Of a stretch of DNA of 48,253 nt, positions 23,941-31,014 are shown in pieces (the stretch's first letter is position 1; every line of letters begins with the position of its first letter). The position numbers and the translations under genes are program-made. The stretch is from a virus. Under the pieces are notes generated by a model, which was not told the DNA's origin, did no database searches, and was given only the letters and a program-made list of their open reading frames with translations. The stretch spans positions 1 to 48,253 of IMG/VR virus record IMGVR_UViG_3300027833_000077; one strand, given 5' to 3'.

Positions 23941-24005
23941 ATTATTCTCCATATGTTTAAGTGTGTGGCAACTGTGCCATGTTTGTATAGTATTGTCAAT
24001 GTTTA

Positions 24006-24179
24006 TTAAAGTAAAGTTGATATGTATCTAACAACGAATGAGAATGCGAAGGCTACACCAAGGAAAGCAAACGCCGTGAATGCTATAACAAGTATAGTCA
24101 TTATGGTTGCGTCACGTTTTTCTTTACGTGCTTGTACTGTTACAGGTTTACTTCTGTAGTATGGTTTATATTGTTTCAT
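24006..24179 (-). CDS. Small single-pass membrane protein (57 aa)
   Basis: An ATG at 24179 with AAAGGAG upstream opens a 57-codon frame. The product has a basic cytoplasmic N-terminus (MKQYKPYYRSKPVTVQARKE) and one long hydrophobic helix rich in Ala and Phe (residues 26-52). By the positive-inside rule the N-terminus is cytoplasmic. No family recognised; small membrane proteins of phages can alter host transport or exclude other phages. Confidence 0.7.
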   Translation of the reverse strand: MKQYKPYYRSKPVTVQARKEKRDATIMTILVIAFTAFAFLGVAFAFSFVVRYISTLL

Positions 24180-24200
24180 TATTATATCTCCTTTGTATAT

Positions 24201-24455
24201 TTATGTGTACTCAAACACTACTTCTTTAATTATAAATAGATGTCCATCGGCTCTTGTAATATCTTCCGCATTAAACAATCTATCATCTGGGTCTTCATCA
24301 AGAGGGTGTGCTATATATACTGCGTAACCTTCTTTGTAAGCCTGTAAAGCCTTGGACATAGTATATGTCTGTATCTCACCGCTTCCTTCATCATCATAGA
24401 TAAACTTACCCTCATCATTTAGTGCAGGTATCTTAGTTCTTTGTTGCTTATCCAT
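24201..24455 (-). CDS. Hypothetical acidic protein
   Basis: An 84-residue protein with AAAGGAG before its ATG. It contains beta-type segments (YEGYAVYIAHPLDEDPDDRLF-like) and ends in a hydrophobic strand EVVFEYT. It overlaps the upstream gene by 8 bp, one of four consecutive tiny cistrons before the methyltransferase is reached from the other side. Function unknown. Confidence 0.68.
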   Translation of the reverse strand: MDKQQRTKIPALNDEGKFIYDDEGSGEIQTYTMSKALQAYKEGYAVYIAHPLDEDPDDRLFNAEDITRADGHLFIIKEVVFEYT

Positions 24456-24621
24456 TATAAAACTCCTTTACATTCAGTTGTATTTCACCCTCAATTGTAT
24501 CATCTACAATCTCTATATCTATACGCTCTCCTGTATCTTGATCATATATACAAACAAGCTCGTCTGAAGCATGATACTGTGATGCTTGAAACAGCCCATG
24601 CTGTAGTTCTTTAAGTGTCAT
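24448..24621 (-). CDS. Small acidic hypothetical protein (57 aa)
   Basis: The frame starts at ATG 24621 with AAAGGA 9 bp upstream and ends at TAA 24448, overlapping the next start. The product begins MTLKELQHGLFQASQYHASD, then has alternating acidic and hydrophobic residues suggesting beta strands. Tight spacing with both neighbours supports it. No family recognised. Confidence 0.7.
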   Translation of the reverse strand: MTLKELQHGLFQASQYHASDELVCIYDQDTGERIDIEIVDDTIEGEIQLNVKEFYNG

Positions 24622-24779
24622 ATTATATTCCTTTCCAGTTCATTATCTATATACACCCATGCCATATCATATGCATAGTCCCAATGTTTTTCATATCCTG
24701 TATGTATATCATCATCAGCGATACACTTTGCCCAATGATCTAAACTAGGCTCGTGATTTATTGGTAGCTCTAACTGCAT
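24618..24779 (-). CDS. Small acidic hypothetical protein (53 aa)
   Basis: The start at 24779 is chosen because GAGGAGG lies shortly upstream at the end of the preceding gene; the longer frame to 24809 lacks a site. The product is acidic and unusually rich in Trp and Tyr (YEKHWDYAYDMAWVYID). It overlaps the next gene by 4 bp. No family recognised; small acidic aromatic proteins are common among anti-host and anti-defence factors, but nothing here proves that. Confidence 0.68.
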   Translation of the reverse strand: MQLELPINHEPSLDHWAKCIADDDIHTGYEKHWDYAYDMAWVYIDNELERNII

Positions 24780-24780
24780 A

Positions 24781-24948
24781 TTATATTTCCTCCTCAAATG
24801 TACCTTCAAACATAAAGTTCAAATCACTCGTATCTATTATCTGTTGTAACTTATACATTAACTCTTGATGCAAAGTGTCGGGGTCAGTTTCTTTAGGTGC
24901 TTTTACACTTATTATATTATCCAAAGTAAAATCAAAACTTATATTCAT
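24781..24948 (-). CDS. Small hypothetical protein (55 aa)
   Basis: ATG at 24948 with AAAGGA 8 bp upstream, TAA at 24781. The product starts MNISFDFTLDNIISVKAP and has a helical acidic C-terminus. It fits exactly between the methyltransferase stop and the next small gene. No family recognised. Confidence 0.68.
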   Translation of the reverse strand: MNISFDFTLDNIISVKAPKETDPDTLHQELMYKLQQIIDTSDLNFMFEGTFEEEI

Positions 24949-24949
24949 A

Positions 24950-26053
24950 TTATAATCCTTTCAGTATGTGTGCTATCACGTCTACAGTCCACCCATTACC
25001 GAGCATCTTGTAACGCTGTGTGTTTGATACACCTTCAGTGTACCCATCTGGCACTGTTTGAAGACGTTCACATTCTAAACACGTTAGCTTACGCCAAGAC
25101 ATGTTCTCAATCAAGATACTGTCCTTAGTTACTGTGGTCAAACAATTAGTCTTATCATCTTCTCTGACCTCAATCATCTGCTTGATTGGTATAGATGTGT
25201 CATAGTCTTTACGAGTACCATTCTCATCTAGTCTTCTACCAACCATGCGTCCACCCTTCACCAATACTTTAGGCTCTAAGTTACCACCACTTGAGGCACA
25301 CAGACTAGGTGCTTTACCTTCGGCTGCATATACCCTTCGTACATATCCGTGACCCTTTAGATCAGCGTCACCAACATGGCACATCTGATCATCGCTGAAT
25401 ACTAACTGTCTGCGATGCTTCTCGAAGTATGACTTGAGATTACCACCTTTGAAGTAGTTAGCATCAAGACAATGTGACTTAGTTCTGTCAGTCAAACCAT
25501 CCTCAAGTATATCTTTCAAGACTATACCACGATCTTCTGGCTGTTCTATACCTTCGATGTTAGTCCAATAGAAACGTTTCCTATTCTGTGCAGACACTAA
25601 CGCACTGTTGATTAGATACTTGTTTACATTAGGCAATGCTTGCTCAGTATGGTACGTGATGTACTCCTCAAAAGCATTAGACATTCTAACGTTCTCCATT
25701 ATGTACTTAGCATTAGGGTTATGCTCAAGCACATGTTGCATGATGTCTAGCACTACCCAAAACAATTGACCTCGTGGATCACGATCACCTTGCTGTTGAC
25801 CTGCAACTGACCATGCCTGACATGGGAAACCTGCTGTGACTAGATCGACTTGTGACCAATCAATATCCCATGATCTCCACTCAGTCATATCACCTACTTG
25901 TATAGTGTTAGGGTAGTTCTTCTGCGTAATACTGATAGCATACTTGTCTATCTCACTAGCTATATACGTATCAGCATGTAAGCCTATCCGATCACCTGCC
26001 ATCTGACCACCTGATATGCCATCACATAGGGATAGTTGTATTCTAATCTTCAT
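24950..26053 (-). CDS. dcm: C5 cytosine-specific DNA methyltransferase
   Basis: A 367-residue methyltransferase that transfers a methyl group from SAM to C5 of cytosine. Motif I is LSLCDGISGG, motif IV GFPCQAWS with catalytic C78, motif VI ENV (120-122), and motifs IX-X are TCLECERLQTVPDGYT and RYKMLGNGWTV. The variable region (about 200-300) sets the target, which I cannot read. The ATG at 26053 has GAGGA 8 bp upstream; the longer frame to 26068 is less likely. No cognate restriction enzyme is adjacent, so it probably protects phage DNA or alters regulation. Confidence 0.92.
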   Translation of the reverse strand: MKIRIQLSLCDGISGGQMAGDRIGLHADTYIASEIDKYAISITQKNYPNTIQVGDMTEWRSWDIDWSQVDLVTAGFPCQAWSVAGQQQGDRDPRGQLFWVVLDIMQHVLEHNPNAKYIMENVRMSNAFEEYITYHTEQALPNVNKYLINSALVSAQNRKRFYWTNIEGIEQPEDRGIVLKDILEDGLTDRTKSHCLDANYFKGGNLKSYFEKHRRQLVFSDDQMCHVGDADLKGHGYVRRVYAAEGKAPSLCASSGGNLEPKVLVKGGRMVGRRLDENGTRKDYDTSIPIKQMIEVREDDKTNCLTTVTKDSILIENMSWRKLTCLECERLQTVPDGYTEGVSNTQRYKMLGNGWTVDVIAHILKGL

Positions 26054-26074
26054 TGTTATATTCCTCATATTGTT

Positions 26075-26090
26075 AGTCCGACATCGGACT
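26075..26090. repeat. 16-bp palindrome, copy 1
   Basis: AGTCCGACATCGGACT, two 7-bp arms around CA. It lies between the stop of the 78-aa gene, whose TAA shares its first base with the repeat, and the ribosome binding site of the methyltransferase. Confidence 0.9.
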
Positions 26091-26326
26091 TATTGAAACG
26101 ATGGTGGAGTTTCACTTATGTATCCCCACGAAGAGTATATCTCATGTACCCTCTCACTACAATCAACGAACTCAACTTCTGAGTCTGGTTCGCTACGCTT
26201 CATCATAAGAATAGCAAACTCTGAAGCACTACGCCAATCACTGACAGAAGGATACGTATCATCTAACTTAACGATAGTATTCTTACTGTCAATGGCTAAC
26301 GTGACTTCATACGCCATAACTGGCAT
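26090..26326 (-). CDS. Small hypothetical protein (78 aa)
   Basis: An acidic protein, MPVMAYEVTLAIDSKNTIV at the start, probably a small alpha/beta fold. An alternative ATG is at 26317. Its stop codon is part of palindrome copy 1. It follows the upstream gene by 3 bp. No family recognised. Confidence 0.62.
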   Translation of the reverse strand: MPVMAYEVTLAIDSKNTIVKLDDTYPSVSDWRSASEFAILMMKRSEPDSEVEFVDCSERVHEIYSSWGYISETPPSFQ

Positions 26327-26329
26327 AGG

Positions 26330-26569
26330 TTACTCGTCCTCAGTCTTGAACGCAAACTTCAATGCATACATAGCAGATTCAATCTTACCTATGTCGGACA
26401 TGTATAGATCATGAGCTTCTGTAACCATAAAATATGTGTTACTCAAAACATCTTGAGCTTCTTTGATAGCTTTGCTTTGCTCCTCAGACATAGACTTCAA
26501 TAACTTTTTAGTTACTTTATACCTAGCCATACGTTCAGCTTTCCACTGAGCTTGTGTTTTATTTGACAT
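26330..26569 (-). CDS. Small helical hypothetical protein (79 aa)
   Basis: The start at 26569 is preferred because GGAGG lies 8 bp upstream; the longer frame to 26611 overlaps the preceding gene. The product is Lys-rich and helical at the N-terminus (NKTQAQWKAERMARYKVTKK). No family recognised. Confidence 0.65.
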   Translation of the reverse strand: MSNKTQAQWKAERMARYKVTKKLLKSMSEEQSKAIKEAQDVLSNTYFMVTEAHDLYMSDIGKIESAMYALKFAFKTEDE

Positions 26570-26574
26570 TGTTA

Positions 26575-26904
26575 TTACGCCTCCAATTGTTGTTTGATGT
26601 CTGCCAACCAAGTGACAAGCATTTTTTGTTGTGTCTTCAATGTAGCACGCTTAGTCGTATACTTGCTACCTATTAAACCTACAGATTGTAATACTTGTAC
26701 CCTATATACAATACGATTAGGGTATTCATTCAAGTCAGATGCAATCTGTTTTATAGTAGACACTCTCCAGTTTTGTAGAATGTAATCATCAACAGATGCA
26801 TAGTTGTAGGTATGAATACCTGCTCTTGACATGTGTGCTGTGTGCTTCACATATAGTTCTGGGTTAGTGTTCTTCACTAGTGGTTTTGAAATAATAGTAG
26901 TCAT
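26575..26904 (-). CDS. Putative winged-helix DNA-binding protein
   Basis: A 109-residue basic protein. Residues about 50-85 (VSTIKQIASDLNEYPNRIVYRVQVLQSVGLI) read as a helix-turn-helix followed by the LxxxGLI wing entry seen in MarR and similar regulators. It is the best candidate for a transcription factor in the early region and might bind one of the palindromes nearby. This is inference from the helix pattern. AGGAGC lies upstream of the ATG. Confidence 0.58.
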   Translation of the reverse strand: MTTIISKPLVKNTNPELYVKHTAHMSRAGIHTYNYASVDDYILQNWRVSTIKQIASDLNEYPNRIVYRVQVLQSVGLIGSKYTTKRATLKTQQKMLVTWLADIKQQLEA

Positions 26905-26918
26905 GTTATGTTAGCTCC

Positions 26919-27089
26919 TTATGCTATACGTTTTTGTTTGTAATCTGTTATGCCTCTTTGCATATTAGTTTTAATCTTACGTGCTGTTGAACGCTCACGC
27001 TTCCAATCATCACGCTTAGGCTTCTTCTTAGTAGTTAGTCCGACATCGGACTTAGTGAACTTAATAAAGTTCTTCATAGTATACTGCAT
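26919..27089 (-). CDS. Small basic protein with the palindrome inside its coding frame
   Basis: The 56-residue frame starts at ATG 27089 (MQYTMKNFIKFTKSDVGLTT), 10 bp after GGAGG; an internal ATG is at 27077. A third ATG at 27093 has the best spacing to GGAGG but opens only a 10-codon frame. The product is very basic (KKKPKRDDWKRERSTARKIK), so nucleic acid binding is plausible. Codons 13-18 (KSDVGL) are encoded by palindrome copy 2. Ends 15 bp before the next gene. Confidence 0.65.
   Translation of the reverse strand: MQYTMKNFIKFTKSDVGLTTKKKPKRDDWKRERSTARKIKTNMQRGITDYKQKRIA
27037..27052. repeat. 16-bp palindrome, copy 2 (intragenic)
   Basis: AGTCCGACATCGGACT, identical to copy 1 but inside the 56-aa coding frame rather than between genes. 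Confidence 0.9.
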
Positions 27090-27096
27090 TCATATG

Positions 27097-27717
27097 TTAC
27101 CTCCCGTATGTTATACATTCTACATGAAATTTTGATACGACATTGCCTGTAGTAAGCTTACGATTAGCTTTGTTACCTGCAACATACTCGCACCATGTGT
27201 TCCACCAATACTTTGAACCCTCACGTTGAGTAAGTACTATGTACTCTTCAACCTTTCGACGTGCAGTCTCTGGCTTCATAGCCTTTGGTGGTGTCTTAAC
27301 CAAGTTAGGATTGATACCTAGTCGCTTGACATTGTGTCCATCAATACAAGCTACATTGAAACCTAGGCATTGAGCAAGGAAAGATGCCTTGACCATACCC
27401 AAGTTAGGTACTTGCATAAATAACTCAACAACATCAGCACAAGCCTCAACACTGTTGTAACCTTTTGCATCTGCAATCTTGTACATTTCACTACGTAGGT
27501 AGTCACCATGCTTGATAAGGTACTTGTAACCTTCATCTTTTTTGCCCCATAAACAATTTGCTTTCACACCATCTATGCTTACTTTTTCCATGCTACCTTT
27601 TACTGTGGATAAACCTGCTTGTATCGTTAGCAATACAAACAAGCCAGTGTTTACAAATGCATCTGTACCGCCCCAACGGACAAATGATTTAATTTCTCTT
27701 ACATCACGATTATACAT
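27097..27717 (-). CDS. HhH-GPD-like (DNA glycosylase fold) protein
   Basis: A 206-residue protein. Residues 103-119 (VPNLGMVKASFLAQCLG) resemble the helix-hairpin-helix of endonuclease III-type glycosylases (LPGxGxxxA), and CIDGHNVKRLG at 124-134 corresponds to the strand with the catalytic Asp (V-D-T-H-V-x-R-L). No 4Fe-4S cysteine loop is seen. It may act on modified bases, possibly linked to the methyltransferase downstream. The ATG at 27717 has AAAGGA upstream; the 22-codon longer frame would cover the promoter module. Confidence 0.6.
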   Translation of the reverse strand: MYNRDVREIKSFVRWGGTDAFVNTGLFVLLTIQAGLSTVKGSMEKVSIDGVKANCLWGKKDEGYKYLIKHGDYLRSEMYKIADAKGYNSVEACADVVELFMQVPNLGMVKASFLAQCLGFNVACIDGHNVKRLGINPNLVKTPPKAMKPETARRKVEEYIVLTQREGSKYWWNTWCEYVAGNKANRKLTTGNVVSKFHVECITYGR

Positions 27718-27754
27718 ACTCAATTTCCTTTTGTGTTGTTGGTTGATGCTTAAC

Positions 27755-27804
27755 AACAAATCAGATAAGCAACCTGTTGTCAAGCGTTATTTTACTACGT
27801 AGTA
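27755..27804 (-). promoter_or_regulatory. Composite leftward promoter P2 with TACTACGTAGTA dyad
   Basis: On the minus strand: dyad TACTACGTAGTA (27804-27793), 9 bp, TTGACA (27783-27778), 9 bp, TTATCTGAT (27768-27760), giving a 17-bp spacer to TTTGTT (27760-27755) preceded by TGA. The same elements with identical spacing occur at 29678-29727. The poor minus-10 and the dyad just upstream of minus-35 suggest an activated or repressed promoter for the HhH-like gene at 27717. Confidence 0.65.
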
Positions 27805-27810
27805 GTAGTG

Positions 27811-28005
27811 TTATGGTTTGTAGGTTTTCCAACCTGAGTCACTCACAAACTCTACTACATTATTTTTGTTGTCATACACTACATCGACAACAGGTAAAGC
27901 ACACTTACGCTGTAGCTCAATACGTGAACGCAGCCGAGCTATGCGATCCTCACGACTAAGCTTAGGTAAGGTGTGTAACTTACTTTTGTGCAATTTAAAT
28001 TTCAT
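27811..28005 (-). CDS. Small basic hypothetical protein (64 aa)
   Basis: The ATG at 28005 overlaps the upstream stop (ATGA). The product starts MKFKLHKSKLHTLPKLSRED, is Lys/Arg rich in the first half and beta-like in the second (VVDVVYDNKNNVVEFVS). It ends just before the composite promoter P2. No family recognised. Confidence 0.65.
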   Translation of the reverse strand: MKFKLHKSKLHTLPKLSREDRIARLRSRIELQRKCALPVVDVVYDNKNNVVEFVSDSGWKTYKP

Positions 28006-28232
28006 TCTACACAATACCTCGATACTGTTGCATGCAATTGCATGTCAATCCTGTTACCATAAAACCTGACCCAAGTGCGGTCAACACTAGCGTCAACTAG
28101 TTCCATAGCATTACTTTCATCTGTTTTTAAGTCTTCGACTTCCCACATAGCTTGCTTGATAGCTTTCTTCATACTTGAAAACATACCAACCAATCCATCT
28201 GCAGGTGTATCTACTTTGTAAACATACTTCAT
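28002..28232 (-). CDS. Small hypothetical protein (76 aa)
   Basis: AAAGG lies upstream of the ATG at 28232, directly after palindrome copy 3. The product (MKYVYKVDTPADGLVGMFSS...) has a beta strand, an amphipathic helix and a second beta part, a typical small alpha/beta fold. No family recognised. Confidence 0.66.
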   Translation of the reverse strand: MKYVYKVDTPADGLVGMFSSMKKAIKQAMWEVEDLKTDESNAMELVDASVDRTWVRFYGNRIDMQLHATVSRYCVE

Positions 28233-28255
28233 TTTATTAACCTTTCACAATATTA

Positions 28256-28271
28256 AGTCCGACATCGGACT
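28256..28271. repeat. 16-bp palindrome, copy 3
   Basis: AGTCCGACATCGGACT between the TAG of the 78-aa gene (the stop overlaps the repeat by 2 bp) and the ribosome binding site of the 76-aa gene. Confidence 0.9.
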
Positions 28272-28506
28272 ACACTTCCAATATCTGTTTCAAGTACGAG
28301 AGTGCATTGTCGTGTATCTCCCACGTGTACCCAAGCTCCTCAATCAATTTGAGTGTGGCAAAGGTAAGCGTAGTAGTACCTGCAATGTGAGCAAACCGCT
28401 TGGCATTCTCACATATGGGGTATATCTTTTGCCTACCATATACATCACGTACTTCAATCTTAATAACTTTAAACATGTTATCAGCATCCTTATGATCACT
28501 TAGCAT
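28270..28506 (-). CDS. Small hypothetical protein (78 aa)
   Basis: The ATG at 28506 is chosen because AAAGGA lies upstream; the TTG at 28524 would place the start before the site. The product starts MLSDHKDADNMFKVIKIEVR and has a C-terminal hydrophobic helix. Its stop codon overlaps palindrome copy 3. No family recognised. Confidence 0.65.
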   Translation of the reverse strand: MLSDHKDADNMFKVIKIEVRDVYGRQKIYPICENAKRFAHIAGTTTLTFATLKLIEELGYTWEIHDNALSYLKQILEV

Positions 28507-28530
28507 TATACAATATCCTTTCAAGATATA

Positions 28531-28546
28531 AGTCCGACATCGGACT
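28531..28546. repeat. 16-bp palindrome, copy 4
   Basis: AGTCCGACATCGGACT. The TAG of the 64-aa gene (28545-28547) overlaps its end. On the minus strand it is flanked by AAC before and TT after, as in copies 5 and 6. Confidence 0.9.
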
Positions 28547-28739
28547 AGTTAAACATTTCGTCCCATTCTGTGGGTGTGATACCTGTAGCAATGAACTCAC
28601 GTTCTTGTGCAGATATGTTAGGCATAGCATTTTGGATAAGCTCACCTTGCCAATACCACGCATCAATCTGCGTTGGTGTTACATCAATATCCATTTCACT
28701 TACAGTGCCAGATACCATTGATTTACGTTTAATTATCAT
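28545..28739 (-). CDS. Small hypothetical protein (64 aa)
   Basis: GGAAGG lies 9 bp before the ATG at 28739. The product has a Lys/Arg N-terminus (MIIKRKSMVSG), a beta-like middle and an acidic C-terminus with ITPTEWDEMFN. This last motif occurs at the end of several small marine-phage proteins as far as I recall. It is bounded by palindromes on both sides. Function unknown. Confidence 0.66.
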   Translation of the reverse strand: MIIKRKSMVSGTVSEMDIDVTPTQIDAWYWQGELIQNAMPNISAQEREFIATGITPTEWDEMFN

Positions 28740-28760
28740 TGTATTGACCTTCCATTATTA

Positions 28761-28776
28761 AGTCCGACATCGGACT
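28761..28776. repeat. 16-bp palindrome, copy 5
   Basis: AGTCCGACATCGGACT between the 41-aa and 64-aa genes, with the TAG of the 41-aa gene overlapping. Confidence 0.9.
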
Positions 28777-28900
28777 AGTTGATATTTAAAAACAAAGCAC
28801 CGCCTAGGATAAATCCCATCATAGCACCTATGACTATGTTCTTACATGCCTCACGTAGCTGTTTTTGACGTTTACGTTGCCTAGATGTTCTGTATGCCAT
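28775..28900 (-). CDS. Tiny single-pass membrane protein (41 aa)
   Basis: ATG at 28900 with AAAGGA upstream, TAG at 28775. The N-terminus is strongly basic (MAYRTSRQRKRQKQLREACK) and is followed by one hydrophobic helix (IVIGAMMGFILGGALFLNI). The helix contains GxxMMGxxxGG spacing that could favour helix packing. Bounded by palindromes 5 and 6. Possible host-membrane effector; no family recognised. Confidence 0.7.
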   Translation of the reverse strand: MAYRTSRQRKRQKQLREACKNIVIGAMMGFILGGALFLNIN

Positions 28901-28926
28901 TGTGTGTGATTCCTTTCACATTATGA

Positions 28927-28942
28927 AGTCCGACATCGGACT
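28927..28942. repeat. 16-bp palindrome, copy 6
   Basis: AGTCCGACATCGGACT upstream of the 41-aa gene. The flanking AACTAG of copies 4 and 5 is kept although no gene ends here, so the flank belongs to the repeat and is not only a stop codon. Confidence 0.88.
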
Positions 28943-28947
28943 AGTTA

Positions 28948-28998
28948 ACTTATAAAGTTACACTAAGCTAGGGAGTGAGCCTAATGTAACCTATAAGT
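28948..28998. repeat. Long imperfect hairpin after the first early gene
   Basis: Three nested pairs of arms: ACTTATA (28948-28954) with TATAAGT (28992-28998), GTTACA (28957-28962) with TGTAAC (28985-28990), and TAGG (28969-28972) with CCTA (28980-28983). It follows the stop of the 206-aa gene by 10 bp on the minus strand. There is no U tract, so attenuation, RNA processing or 3' end protection fits better than simple termination. Confidence 0.7.
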
Positions 28999-29007
28999 AA
29001 ACTTATA

Positions 29008-29628
29008 TTATGCTACCTTTTTTTCATCTGCTAGTTCTTCTTCAGTAAGCATTTCTGCTTCCATCATAAGCATCTCTGCAATGACCATGATGTCTACATC
29101 ACTAGCCTTACATATGGCAAGCAACTCTTTAAAGATTGTCTCTTTAGTTGCAGGTTTAGCTTCGCTAGTTTTAGGTGATGCATCAGCCTCTGGCTTGCTT
29201 GAAGCCTCTGGCTTGTCTATTGATGCTGTATCATCCTTAGATGATGGTTGCTTGTTAGCTTTAGCAATAGCTTTCTGCAGAGCAGATAATGATGTGAAAC
29301 CCTTTTTGCTTTTAGCAATGAACTCACGAGCCTCAACTTCGTTGTTAACGAACCACATAGCTTCACTACGTCTTCTCTTGTCAACTACGTTGATGCCACA
29401 ATCAGCAAGTCTTGTAGACTTAATACGACCTTCACATTCCACTGAAAGTGCAACCATAAGCTTGCCTAGTTGCATGTCAAACCCGTCAGCTTGAGTATGC
29501 TGAGTGAAGCGTGCTTTGTCACCTTTGGTGATAGCTTTCCATTGTCTAGCAATGTCAGCACCTTGTAGCTCAAGTGTAGCAAGTACTGCTGTGTTTGTGT
29601 CGGTGTTAGCTGTGTTTGTATTTGTCAT
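29008..29628 (-). CDS. First leftward early protein (206 aa), unknown
   Basis: The start at 29628 (MTNTNTANTDTNTAVLATLE) has AAAGGA 8 bp upstream; the longer frame to 29709 would read through the promoter. Residues 20-120 form a compact Lys-rich domain with GADIARQWKAITKGDKARF; a Ser/Pro/Lys/Asp linker (about 125-165) follows, then an acidic helical C-terminus (MLMMEAEMLTEEELADEKK). It is the first gene after promoter P1, a position typical of host-takeover or regulatory proteins. No family recognised. Confidence 0.72.
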   Translation of the reverse strand: MTNTNTANTDTNTAVLATLELQGADIARQWKAITKGDKARFTQHTQADGFDMQLGKLMVALSVECEGRIKSTRLADCGINVVDKRRRSEAMWFVNNEVEAREFIAKSKKGFTSLSALQKAIAKANKQPSSKDDTASIDKPEASSKPEADASPKTSEAKPATKETIFKELLAICKASDVDIMVIAEMLMMEAEMLTEEELADEKKVA

Positions 29629-29677
29629 AAGAATTTTCCTTTTTGAGTTTGGCAATTTCGCCGTTTCGATGCAATCA

Positions 29678-29727
29678 GTTAGATCAGATAAATCCGATGG
29701 TGTCAACACCTATTTTACTACGTAGTA
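29678..29727 (-). promoter_or_regulatory. Composite leftward promoter P1 with TACTACGTAGTA dyad
   Basis: On the minus strand: dyad TACTACGTAGTA (29727-29716), 9 bp, TTGACA (29706-29701), 9 bp, TTATCTGAT (29691-29683), with TCTAAC (29683-29678) as minus-10 after a 17-bp spacer and an extended TGA. Spacing is identical to P2 at 27755-27804. It should drive the leftward early genes from 29628. Confidence 0.72.
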
Positions 29728-29744
29728 GTATATGGAGCAAATTA

Positions 29745-29760
29745 AGTCCGATGACGGACT
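29745..29760. repeat. Palindrome copy 7, variant centre
   Basis: AGTCCGATGACGGACT keeps the 6-bp arms AGTCCG/CGGACT but changes the four central bases. It lies about 40 bp upstream of promoter P1, outside the leftward transcript. Confidence 0.82.
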
Positions 29761-30084
29761 ACAAATGGTAAAAACGAATCACTTTTGGGTAGGGAAACGA
29801 ATCAGCTCTCAGTGCGCGTGCGTGCGTATGTGATGCATGTGATGTGACCATCACGTTAAGGGGGTGGTGTATATGTGCATCAACTGTGCAACACACGTCA
29901 CTTGCTCGTAGCATGCCTATGTTTGCACCATATGTGAAGGCAACTGATTGTATAACAGTTGTCGTATCACTGTAAGTGATTGTATTTGTGGAATATTCCT
30001 CGTGTGTGGTGTATGTGCCTACGCATAATGCTCTCACCTAGCGTGTACATGTGCCTATGGGCGCACGCAAACGACCCCAAGCTA

Positions 30085-30109
30085 GGGTGGGCAGGGGGCA
30101 TACGGGGGG
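30085..30109 (+). other. G-quadruplex motif
   Basis: Four G runs of at least three (30085-30087, 30089-30091, 30094-30098, 30104-30109) with loops of 1, 2 and 5 bases, meeting the usual G4 rule. It stands out in an otherwise AT-rich genome. Confidence 0.75.
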
Positions 30110-30230
30110 TGTACGTTAGTATGCATGTACAATTACACAGATCAGAAATATGAGAGTGTTAACCACTATACAGATATGGTGTTATATATACGTGCAGGGT
30201 ATATTTGTGATCACAAAATATGGTCACTAT

Positions 30231-30270
30231 ATGTTACAGTATGTTACAATATTATCACAGTTTGTTACCA
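30231..30270. repeat. GTTAC repeats in 10-bp phase
   Basis: ATGTTACAGT, ATGTTACAAT and TTTGTTACCA begin at 30231, 30241 and 30261, so GTTAC falls on the same helix face at 10, then 20 bp. This is iteron-like. Confidence 0.55.
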
Positions 30271-30285
30271 ATGTACGATTAGGGG

Positions 30286-30313
30286 TTGACATGGGGTACA
30301 GAGTGTGTAAAAC
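30286..30313 (+). promoter_or_regulatory. Candidate rightward promoter
   Basis: TTGACA (30286-30291), 16 bp, TAAAAC (30308-30313). The dyad TCACTATAAGTGA begins 27 bp downstream, at about the position of an operator over the start of transcription. It would drive the genes from 30522. Confidence 0.55.
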
Positions 30314-30479
30314 TATGTATATAGTATATTGGGGTAGGGTCACTATAAGTGATACACGTACAGTATACATGTACTATGATATATACTTATAATTATATTA
30401 TACTATAACTATATAAACATATAAGTATACATGTACAGTGATAGACAATAGCAATAAGGTATATGTACGTACATAGAAA

Positions 30480-30495
30480 TCGCCTTCTTAGGCGA
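30480..30495 (+). repeat. Short hairpin before the first rightward gene
   Basis: TCGCCT (30480-30485) pairs with AGGCGA (30490-30495) around TCTT. No U tract follows, so it is more likely a leader structure than a terminator. Confidence 0.5.
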
Positions 30496-30521
30496 GGACT
30501 TTGTGCAATTAAGTATTGACA

Positions 30522-30734
30522 ATGGCAAAGAAATCAGTAAAACTATATACAGACGATGTTCTTAAACAATTTTACAATCATTTACTTGATGGTAATTTAA
30601 AGAACTTACATATTCCCCATAGTGATGTATTCTACGTAAGGACTGCAGTGGAAGCCCACTATGGTCGTAAGTTTACTTTAGAACATGTAGAATGGGCTAT
30701 GAAAAAAGAAGGTTGGACAGATGGCAATACCTGA
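30522..30734 (+). CDS. Small conserved phage protein (70 aa)
   Basis: Starts at ATG 30522 (MAKKSVKLYTDDVLKQFYNH). The product has a basic N-terminus and helical body ending HVEWAMKKEGWTDGNT. No clear ribosome binding site is visible, and TTGACA (30516-30521) immediately precedes the ATG. It overlaps the next gene by 14 bp. No family recognised. Confidence 0.65.
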   Translation: MAKKSVKLYTDDVLKQFYNHLLDGNLKNLHIPHSDVFYVRTAVEAHYGRKFTLEHVEWAMKKEGWTDGNT

Positions 30735-31014
30735 GCGAGTCAAGAATAAAATGAAAGAGGAAGGACTCAAGGGTGTAAACAAACCTAAGAGGACACCTAG
30801 TCACCCTAAGAAGTCTCACTGTGTGATGGCTAAAGAGGGAGACACGTATAAGTTTATTCGCTTCGGACAACAGGGTGTAAGTGGTGCAGGTAAGAATCCT
30901 AAGACTGCTAAAGATAAAGCTCGTAAGAAGAGTTACTATGCTAGACATAATGCTCAAGGTAAACCGACTAGTAAGCTAAGTGCTAAGTACTGGTCACACA
31001 AAGTTAAGTGGTAA
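30721..31014 (+). CDS. Small basic protein, DUF6321-like
   Basis: A 97-residue, Lys-rich protein. The segment FIRFGQQGVSGAGKNPKTAKDKAR followed by SYYARHNAQGK and SAKYWSHKVKW at the C-terminus is a strongly conserved pattern in marine phages and some giant viruses, which I recall as DUF6321. Function unknown; the basic, Gly-rich character suggests DNA or RNA contact or a virion-associated role. Confidence 0.78.
   Translation: MAIPERVKNKMKEEGLKGVNKPKRTPSHPKKSHCVMAKEGDTYKFIRFGQQGVSGAGKNPKTAKDKARKKSYYARHNAQGKPTSKLSAKYWSHKVKW

Follow-up and report, generated by a model that had tools for sequence, protein, structure and literature searches.

Which factor reads a palindrome that recurs seven times through the leftward early genes of the viral record IMGVR_UViG_3300027833_000077? 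The stretch analyzed here (positions 1 to 48,253 of that record, 48,253 nucleotides; hereafter the window) carries a 16-bp dyad of the form AGTCCG-N4-CGGACT. The array of dyads recurs in related phages, its sequence class is largely uniform within a genome and changes between relatives, and the class matches residue 115 of gp01, the protein encoded by the first gene of the leftward early operon (29008-29628, minus strand). Because residue 115 changes together with the dyad letters in related phages, we consider it somewhat probable that the dyads are DNA operators for gp01, which would be a phage-encoded and probably repressing early regulator.

A palindromic array in the early region

Exact copies of AGTCCGACATCGGACT start at 26075, 27037, 28256, 28531, 28761 and 28927, and a seventh copy with a variant center, AGTCCGATGACGGACT, starts at 29745, as the first-pass annotation of this DNA had reported. 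No further copies within 2 mismatches of AGTCCG-N4-CGGACT were found in the window. At up to 3 mismatches the 16-mer gave 14 strand-matches as compared to a mean of 0.17 in shuffled sequences, and an inverted-repeat scan returned the dyad as the most frequent inverted repeat of the window. All seven copies are confirmed, at a number well above chance expectation. Copy 1 (26075-26090) lies between the open reading frame (ORF) 26090-26326, whose TAA it touches, and the methyltransferase gene 24950-26053. Copy 2 (27037-27052) is within ORF 26919-27089, where it encodes S-D-V-G. Copies 3 (28256-28271), 4 (28531-28546) and 5 (28761-28776) overlap the TAG stops of ORFs 28270-28524, 28545-28739 and 28775-28900, respectively, and copy 6 (28927-28942) lies before ORF 28775-28900. 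A ribosome-binding site and start codon follow copies 1 and 3-6; the placement at stops and before ribosome-binding sites noted at first pass is seen in the sequence. Copy 7 (29745-29760, center ATGA) lies upstream of gp01 and of an early promoter-like sequence, TTGACA-N17-TCTAAC (29678-29706, minus strand; −35 at 29706-29701, −10 at 29683-29678). This pair is a consensus reading, not a mapped start, and was not listed by a stricter scan that required at least 4/6 matches per box in a region set by a longer GTG-start ORF.

The DNA polymerase of the window is 77.9% identical to that of CRP-345, 75.4% to that of CRP-1 (both Roseobacter phages) and 65.7% to that of the Puniceispirillum phage HMO-2011, and the window has gene content in common with these phages. 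Because of these polymerase identities and shared genes, we assign the window to the HMO-2011-type phages on sequence grounds. A search of such genomes for the dyad, proposed at first pass, recovered the array, with changed arms in some relatives. HMO-2011 has five copies of AGTCCG-N4-CGGACT, and CRP-345 and CRP-1 have none of that form; these two carry GTCCAA-N2-TTGGAC-type dyads at places that match the window, namely upstream of the first early gene, within that gene, and within the homologue of ORF 26919-27089. The site is therefore not absent between the same genes in relatives, an outcome that had been named as evidence against a specific role, but is present there with changed arms. The array was not seen in CRP-603, in the first 50 kb of CRP-207 and CRP-2, or in the first 12 kb of CRP-3, HTVC033P, CRP-235, CRP-738 and CRP-212. 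The gp01 gene and the array co-occur in HMO-2011, CRP-1 and CRP-345; in eight further HMO-2011-type isolates, the parts fetched contained neither. CRP-2 and CRP-603 each have one TGTCCAGTTCAGGACA, a GTCC-N6-GGAC dyad outside any array.

Alignments with the DUF932 protein and the integrase yielded 141 loci, many of them short. In 59 of them a GTCCR-type dyad was the most common repeated dyad, in 3 a dyad of another type was, and the remaining 79 had none that was repeated. A second set of 79 loci was fetched with gp01 as query, and 76 of these carry at least 2 dyads. Two loci of this survey, L196 and L210, represent gp01 found twice on one 80-kb contig (IMGVR_UViG_3300046167_000032), perhaps a redundant assembly. 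The general form of the dyad among relatives is GTCC-R-AYRT-Y-GGAC. With sites of identical context counted once, the loci collected before the gp01 query contained GTCC-N6-GGAC at 345 distinct-context sites, as compared to 5, 6 and 36 when the pattern was rearranged in three ways. Of 250 distinct sites, 244 have a pyrimidine-purine step as their central dinucleotide; in this set the invariance of GTCC and GGAC stems from the search pattern itself.

Dyad class is largely uniform within genomes and differs between them

The dyads fall into two classes defined by R in GTCCR (G or A), that is, by bases 6 and 11 of the 16-mer. Class statistics were calculated for the 60 of 150 oriented contigs with at least 3 dyads; these contigs are related, some are near-identical, and the counts are not independent. 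An exact look-alike in the integrase gene, TGTCCAAGGTTGGACG, was removed from the 60-contig analyses, by which the upstream copy of locus L189 was lost too. Same-genome pairs of sites share class in 91.3% of cases (51.0% when shuffled), and class is fully uniform in 41 of the 51 contigs having at least 3 distinct sites. The outer base pair is also genome-typical (69.4% vs 23.3% shuffled), the center less so (54.6% vs 40.3%). Class is largely uniform within a genome and differs between close relatives: loci L054-L058, whose DUF932 protein is 97% identical to that of the window, have AGTCCA at their operon sites, as compared to AGTCCG in the window. The copy upstream of gp01 retains the class in most genomes. 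The integrase look-alike stays A-form even where the genome is G-class, L121 being one case; plain coding sequence would be expected to behave in this way. When four core proteins were used to build a FastTree tree, the label (A or non-A) switched 9 times across 50 contigs. The first-pass proposal that the dyad itself is under selection gains from both the matching places in relatives and the largely uniform class within genomes.

Residue 115 of gp01 follows the dyad class

We grouped the early ORFs of the 60 dyad-bearing contigs and scored their alignment columns against class. The best class-tracking column of all families is gp01 residue 115, in the motif GFTSL-[S/T]-ALQ; in the window it is Ser115 (codon 29284-29286, minus strand). 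The residue is Thr in 23/23 A-class contigs, Ser (9) or Lys (4) in the 13 G-class contigs, and Ser in 4/4 mixed contigs, "mixed" being a label assigned to L099, L108, L102, L104, L144 and L166 after their sites were seen. Lys115 is found in the diverged HMO-2011 branch, which is G-class. The column reaches z 17.1; columns of four core proteins reach no more than 12.9, and those of six other early families no more than 9.0. Among tree contigs, Thr corresponds to A-class in 34 of 34 over 7 label changes (32 of 34 by majority labels). The dyad within gp01 encodes the linker motif S-[N/D]-V-G and not residue 115.

The gp01-fetched loci gave an out-of-sample comparison, in which every GTCCAAGGTTGGAC was removed, 3 of the 79 loci with fewer than 2 sites were set aside, and 22 with mostly seen sites were kept apart. 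The 54 loci with mostly unseen sites, which include near-identical ones, comprise 41 with Thr and A-class, 3 with Thr and mostly A sites (G half-sites 1/12, 1/6 and 2/10), 5 with Ser and G-class, and 5 with Ser and mixed sites; there were 0 contradictions. The 22 loci kept apart also agree (8 Thr-A, 6 Ser-G and 8 Ser-mixed). A rule by which Ser115 together with a basic residue 122 would denote mixed sites has an exception in L121 and is not claimed. No gp01 relative was confirmed in the bacterial genome collection.

AlphaFold2, run on gp01 with 36 sequences, predicted a confident helical domain at residues 16-127 followed by a low-confidence linker. Modeled alone, the domain has a mean predicted local distance difference test (pLDDT) score of 88.3 and a predicted template modeling (pTM) score of 0.82. 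Residue 115 opens the last helix of the modeled domain (114-126), after a helix and a turn. The base-contacting residues of helix-turn-helix (HTH)-type proteins sit at such a helix start.

A proposed model of gp01 at dispersed operators

We propose that gp01 binds the dyad, probably as a dimer in which each subunit would read one GTCCR half-site through the helix starting near residue 114. The central pyrimidine-purine step may allow the DNA to bend. Bound upstream of the operon, before many early genes and within two of them, gp01 would most likely repress and road-block early transcription, its own included, in an early shut-off or an immunity switch. A joint change of gp01 and all of its sites would yield a new specificity that no longer recognizes the old, a situation known from heteroimmune phages. 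Physical binding, dimerization, and repression rather than activation are the parts of this model that we infer.

Several observations weigh against this model. Plain majority labels give 23 of 25 for residue 115; the exceptions, L099 and L108, have mostly A sites with one mixed site each and yet have Ser115. Further gp01 columns track class as well, so residue 115 may not act alone. The 7 label changes on the tree compare with a shuffled mean of 9.3, which is no excess; the weight of the comparison therefore rests on the match of residue to class and not on the number of changes. By base counts, the upstream copy in L054, L055 and L057 has one broken half-site. Sequence, family and fold searches matched gp01 to no known DNA-binding family or fold: the best E among solved chains was 0.35 by sequence; Pfam and PHROG gave scattered weak matches under any curated cut-off shown, among them a KorB domain in 1 of 39 gp01 proteins (E 0.12); Foldseek on the PDB reached no better than E 1.1 with the full-length model and E 1.7 with the domain; and VIA-align of the models gave best Z of 3.9 (the RptR repressor) and 3.4. 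One unnamed viral model, S4S2E1, was also returned (E 2.7e-7). The sites of the operon show a strong bias in orientation that binding by a symmetric dimer would not require. Outer pairs within the operon are C..A at 88 sites and T..G at 1, and the center is ATGT at 136 and ACAT at 16, with identical contexts counted once and sites on contigs lacking a long gp01 ORF scored as internal. Upstream sites with the A..C pair also lean one way (A..C 5, G..T 1), and 9 of 10 mixed sites have G on the left and T on the right, retaining a G-U pair in RNA.

Placement and alternative functions

A ribosome-binding site and start codon follow within 50 nucleotides at 118 of 247 distinct sites, as compared to 17% of random positions, and the site-to-start distance has a median of 20 nucleotides with quartiles of 18 and 22. 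Of the remaining sites, 104 are in ORFs without such a start and 25 in neither setting. In relatives, the dyads have three settings: about 20 nucleotides before early starts, inside two of the early genes, and ahead of the first early gene. The dispersal of the sites, some of them inside genes, together with the weak KorB match, would suit a gp01 that binds the dyad DNA to activate or anti-terminate early transcription, or to build a replication or partition complex as ParB/KorB-type proteins do. We consider such a non-repressor role rather unlikely, and the tie of about half of the sites to start codons would be needless for partition sites.

The same tight spacing before starts raises the question of whether the operon-internal copies act as RNA hairpins that control stability, processing or translation, with gp01 or a nuclease as the reader. 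Hairpins computed from typed site strings have stabilities of −6.1 to −8.3 kcal/mol, and both the strong orientation within the operon (outer pair A..C 28, G..T 1, in addition to the counts above) and the preserved G-U pair fit an RNA element. Orientation of the internal sites points to a polar function, as in stoperators, or to an RNA role. Upstream of gp01, sites occur in both orientations (C..A 5 vs T..G 6; center 12 vs 13). The reversed flanks T..G, which would lengthen the stem, are nearly absent within the operon, Rfam gave 0 matches at gathering score in window positions 24000-31000, and the upstream copy, which in the window would fall outside a transcript from the promoter-like sequence yet keeps the class in most genomes, favors a DNA site. 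An RNA function of the internal copies is accordingly improbable in our judgment. Of the first-pass interpretation, the preference for a protein-binding DNA site is supported: the conserved places, the largely uniform class and the class of the upstream copy in most genomes make it the better reading. The proposed HTH reader is not supported.

It is very improbable that another phage protein reads the dyad. The first-pass annotation had suspected the protein encoded at 26575-26904, in which it saw an HTH-like region, but residues 5-109 of this protein are identical in the G-class window and the A-class loci L054-L058. No column of the protein separates G from A class in that comparison, and a protein identical across classes is not the class reader. 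The small Lys/Arg-rich protein encoded at 26919-27089 has relatives in 55 of the 60 dyad-bearing contigs, and in most cases the dyad is read in frame close to the start of the protein; its class differences lie only at residue 15, which the dyad encodes, and residue 52. The best columns reach z 6.2 for the HTH protein and 9.0, at the dyad-coded residue, for the basic protein. The latter was also considered as a lambda-N-like RNA binder and was set aside on the class-tracking comparison.

In a bacterial genome collection, 74 stretches contain the exact 16-mer, each a single time; the chance expectation is about 120 by arithmetic (257 billion bases, both strands). The motif is at chance level in bacterial genomes, and the equal frequency in unrelated genes or hosts that would have spoken against a specific role did not occur. 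Flanks beyond the dyad are common to copies in some genomes, which suggests copying, but it is very improbable that the dyads are a palindromic repeat that spreads, or a motif imposed by the host, with no phage protein to read them, given these single bacterial occurrences, arms that are uniform while centers vary within a genome, the conserved places in relatives, the match of residue 115 to class, and the presence of the array in CRP-1 but not in CRP-2, which infects the same host, FZCC0023.

Neighboring sequence elements

The palindrome TACTACGTAGTA occurs at 27793-27804 and 29716-29727, each time just upstream of a minus-strand TTGACA, and the block also adjoins the upstream dyad in L006, L035 and L077. 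A perfect 14-bp palindrome, TTTGTGATCACAAA, lies at 30204-30217; this word adjoins the upstream dyad in CRP-345 and, nearly, in CRP-1. The ribosome-binding site behind a dyad is often within its own small inverted repeat, e.g. AAACGGAGTTT or AGAAGGAACTTCT (L088, L110, L116, L128 and others). In L088, L063 and HMO-2011, the stretch from the promoter-like TTGACA to gp01, presumably the 5′ leader of this gene, contains a long inverted repeat. Directly behind copy 1, 24950-26053 is a C5 cytosine-methyltransferase-like gene whose DNA resembles such genes of Vibrio and Proteus phages.

Comparison with known systems and significance

Lambda-type operators are palindromic, read by dimers, and have phage-specific half-sites, and nut/boxB sites are short hairpins read by a phage-specific early protein. 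A genome has only a few of these, placed at promoters or singly in an operon, whereas here several sites stand before individual genes. No boxA, as of nut sites, was recognized here.

The dyad array appears to resemble the stoperators of cluster A (L5-type) phages, but has palindromic sites, intragenic copies, and a protein without detected relatives. In cluster A phages (PMC6550527, PMC9283540), as here, many short sites occupy narrow gaps between genes and also lie ahead of early transcription, and the site consensus varies together with the regulator, the counterpart here being gp01 residue 115. Transcript-internal cluster A sites are mostly in one orientation, as are, by flank and center, those within the operon here but not most copies upstream of gp01, and the core of the dyad is symmetric; reversed stoperators lose repression (PMC9283540). 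L5 sites are monomer-bound, asymmetric 13-mers found genome-wide, whereas the palindromic dyad here spans 14 bp and, in the window, occurs only in the early region, with some copies intragenic. The gp01 protein has no standout Pfam, PHROG or solved-chain match, and no direct comparison with the L5 repressor was made.

Cluster K phages have start-associated sequences (SAS) and extended SAS (ESAS) that are likewise (PMC3203893) repeats with inverted-repeat parts just upstream of non-structural gene starts; their consensus differs by subcluster and their function is given as unknown. They comprise a 13-bp asymmetric SAS, GGGATAGGAGCCC, at starts and paired imperfect 17-bp repeats with a spacer, as compared to one 14-bp dyad of different sequence here. 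Unlike SAS/ESAS, the dyad array has a candidate reader protein. For HMO-2011-type phages, the words "repressor" and "promoter" were absent from the three papers covered by a word search, and titles and opening abstracts on HMO-2011 or SAR116 palindromes and general phage terms contained nothing fitting. Integrases are present in some of these phages, and integration of CRP-3 has been demonstrated.

Tentatively, gp01 may represent a novel type of DNA-binding phage regulator, with a fold unmatched here, that silences an early operon through dispersed palindromes. It is possible, though we would not call it probable, that a switch of nearly one residue between Ser and Thr, moving with all of the sites, has repeatedly made separate immunity types in one of the commonest marine phage groups. 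If true, an early regulator encoded by the phage itself, with sites legible in the sequence, would make early control and possible lysogeny accessible to study in phages that infect SAR116 and RCA bacteria. Operator types would then be countable in metagenomes, and these phages would offer a natural series of protein-site changes for studying how specificity shifts at many sites together.

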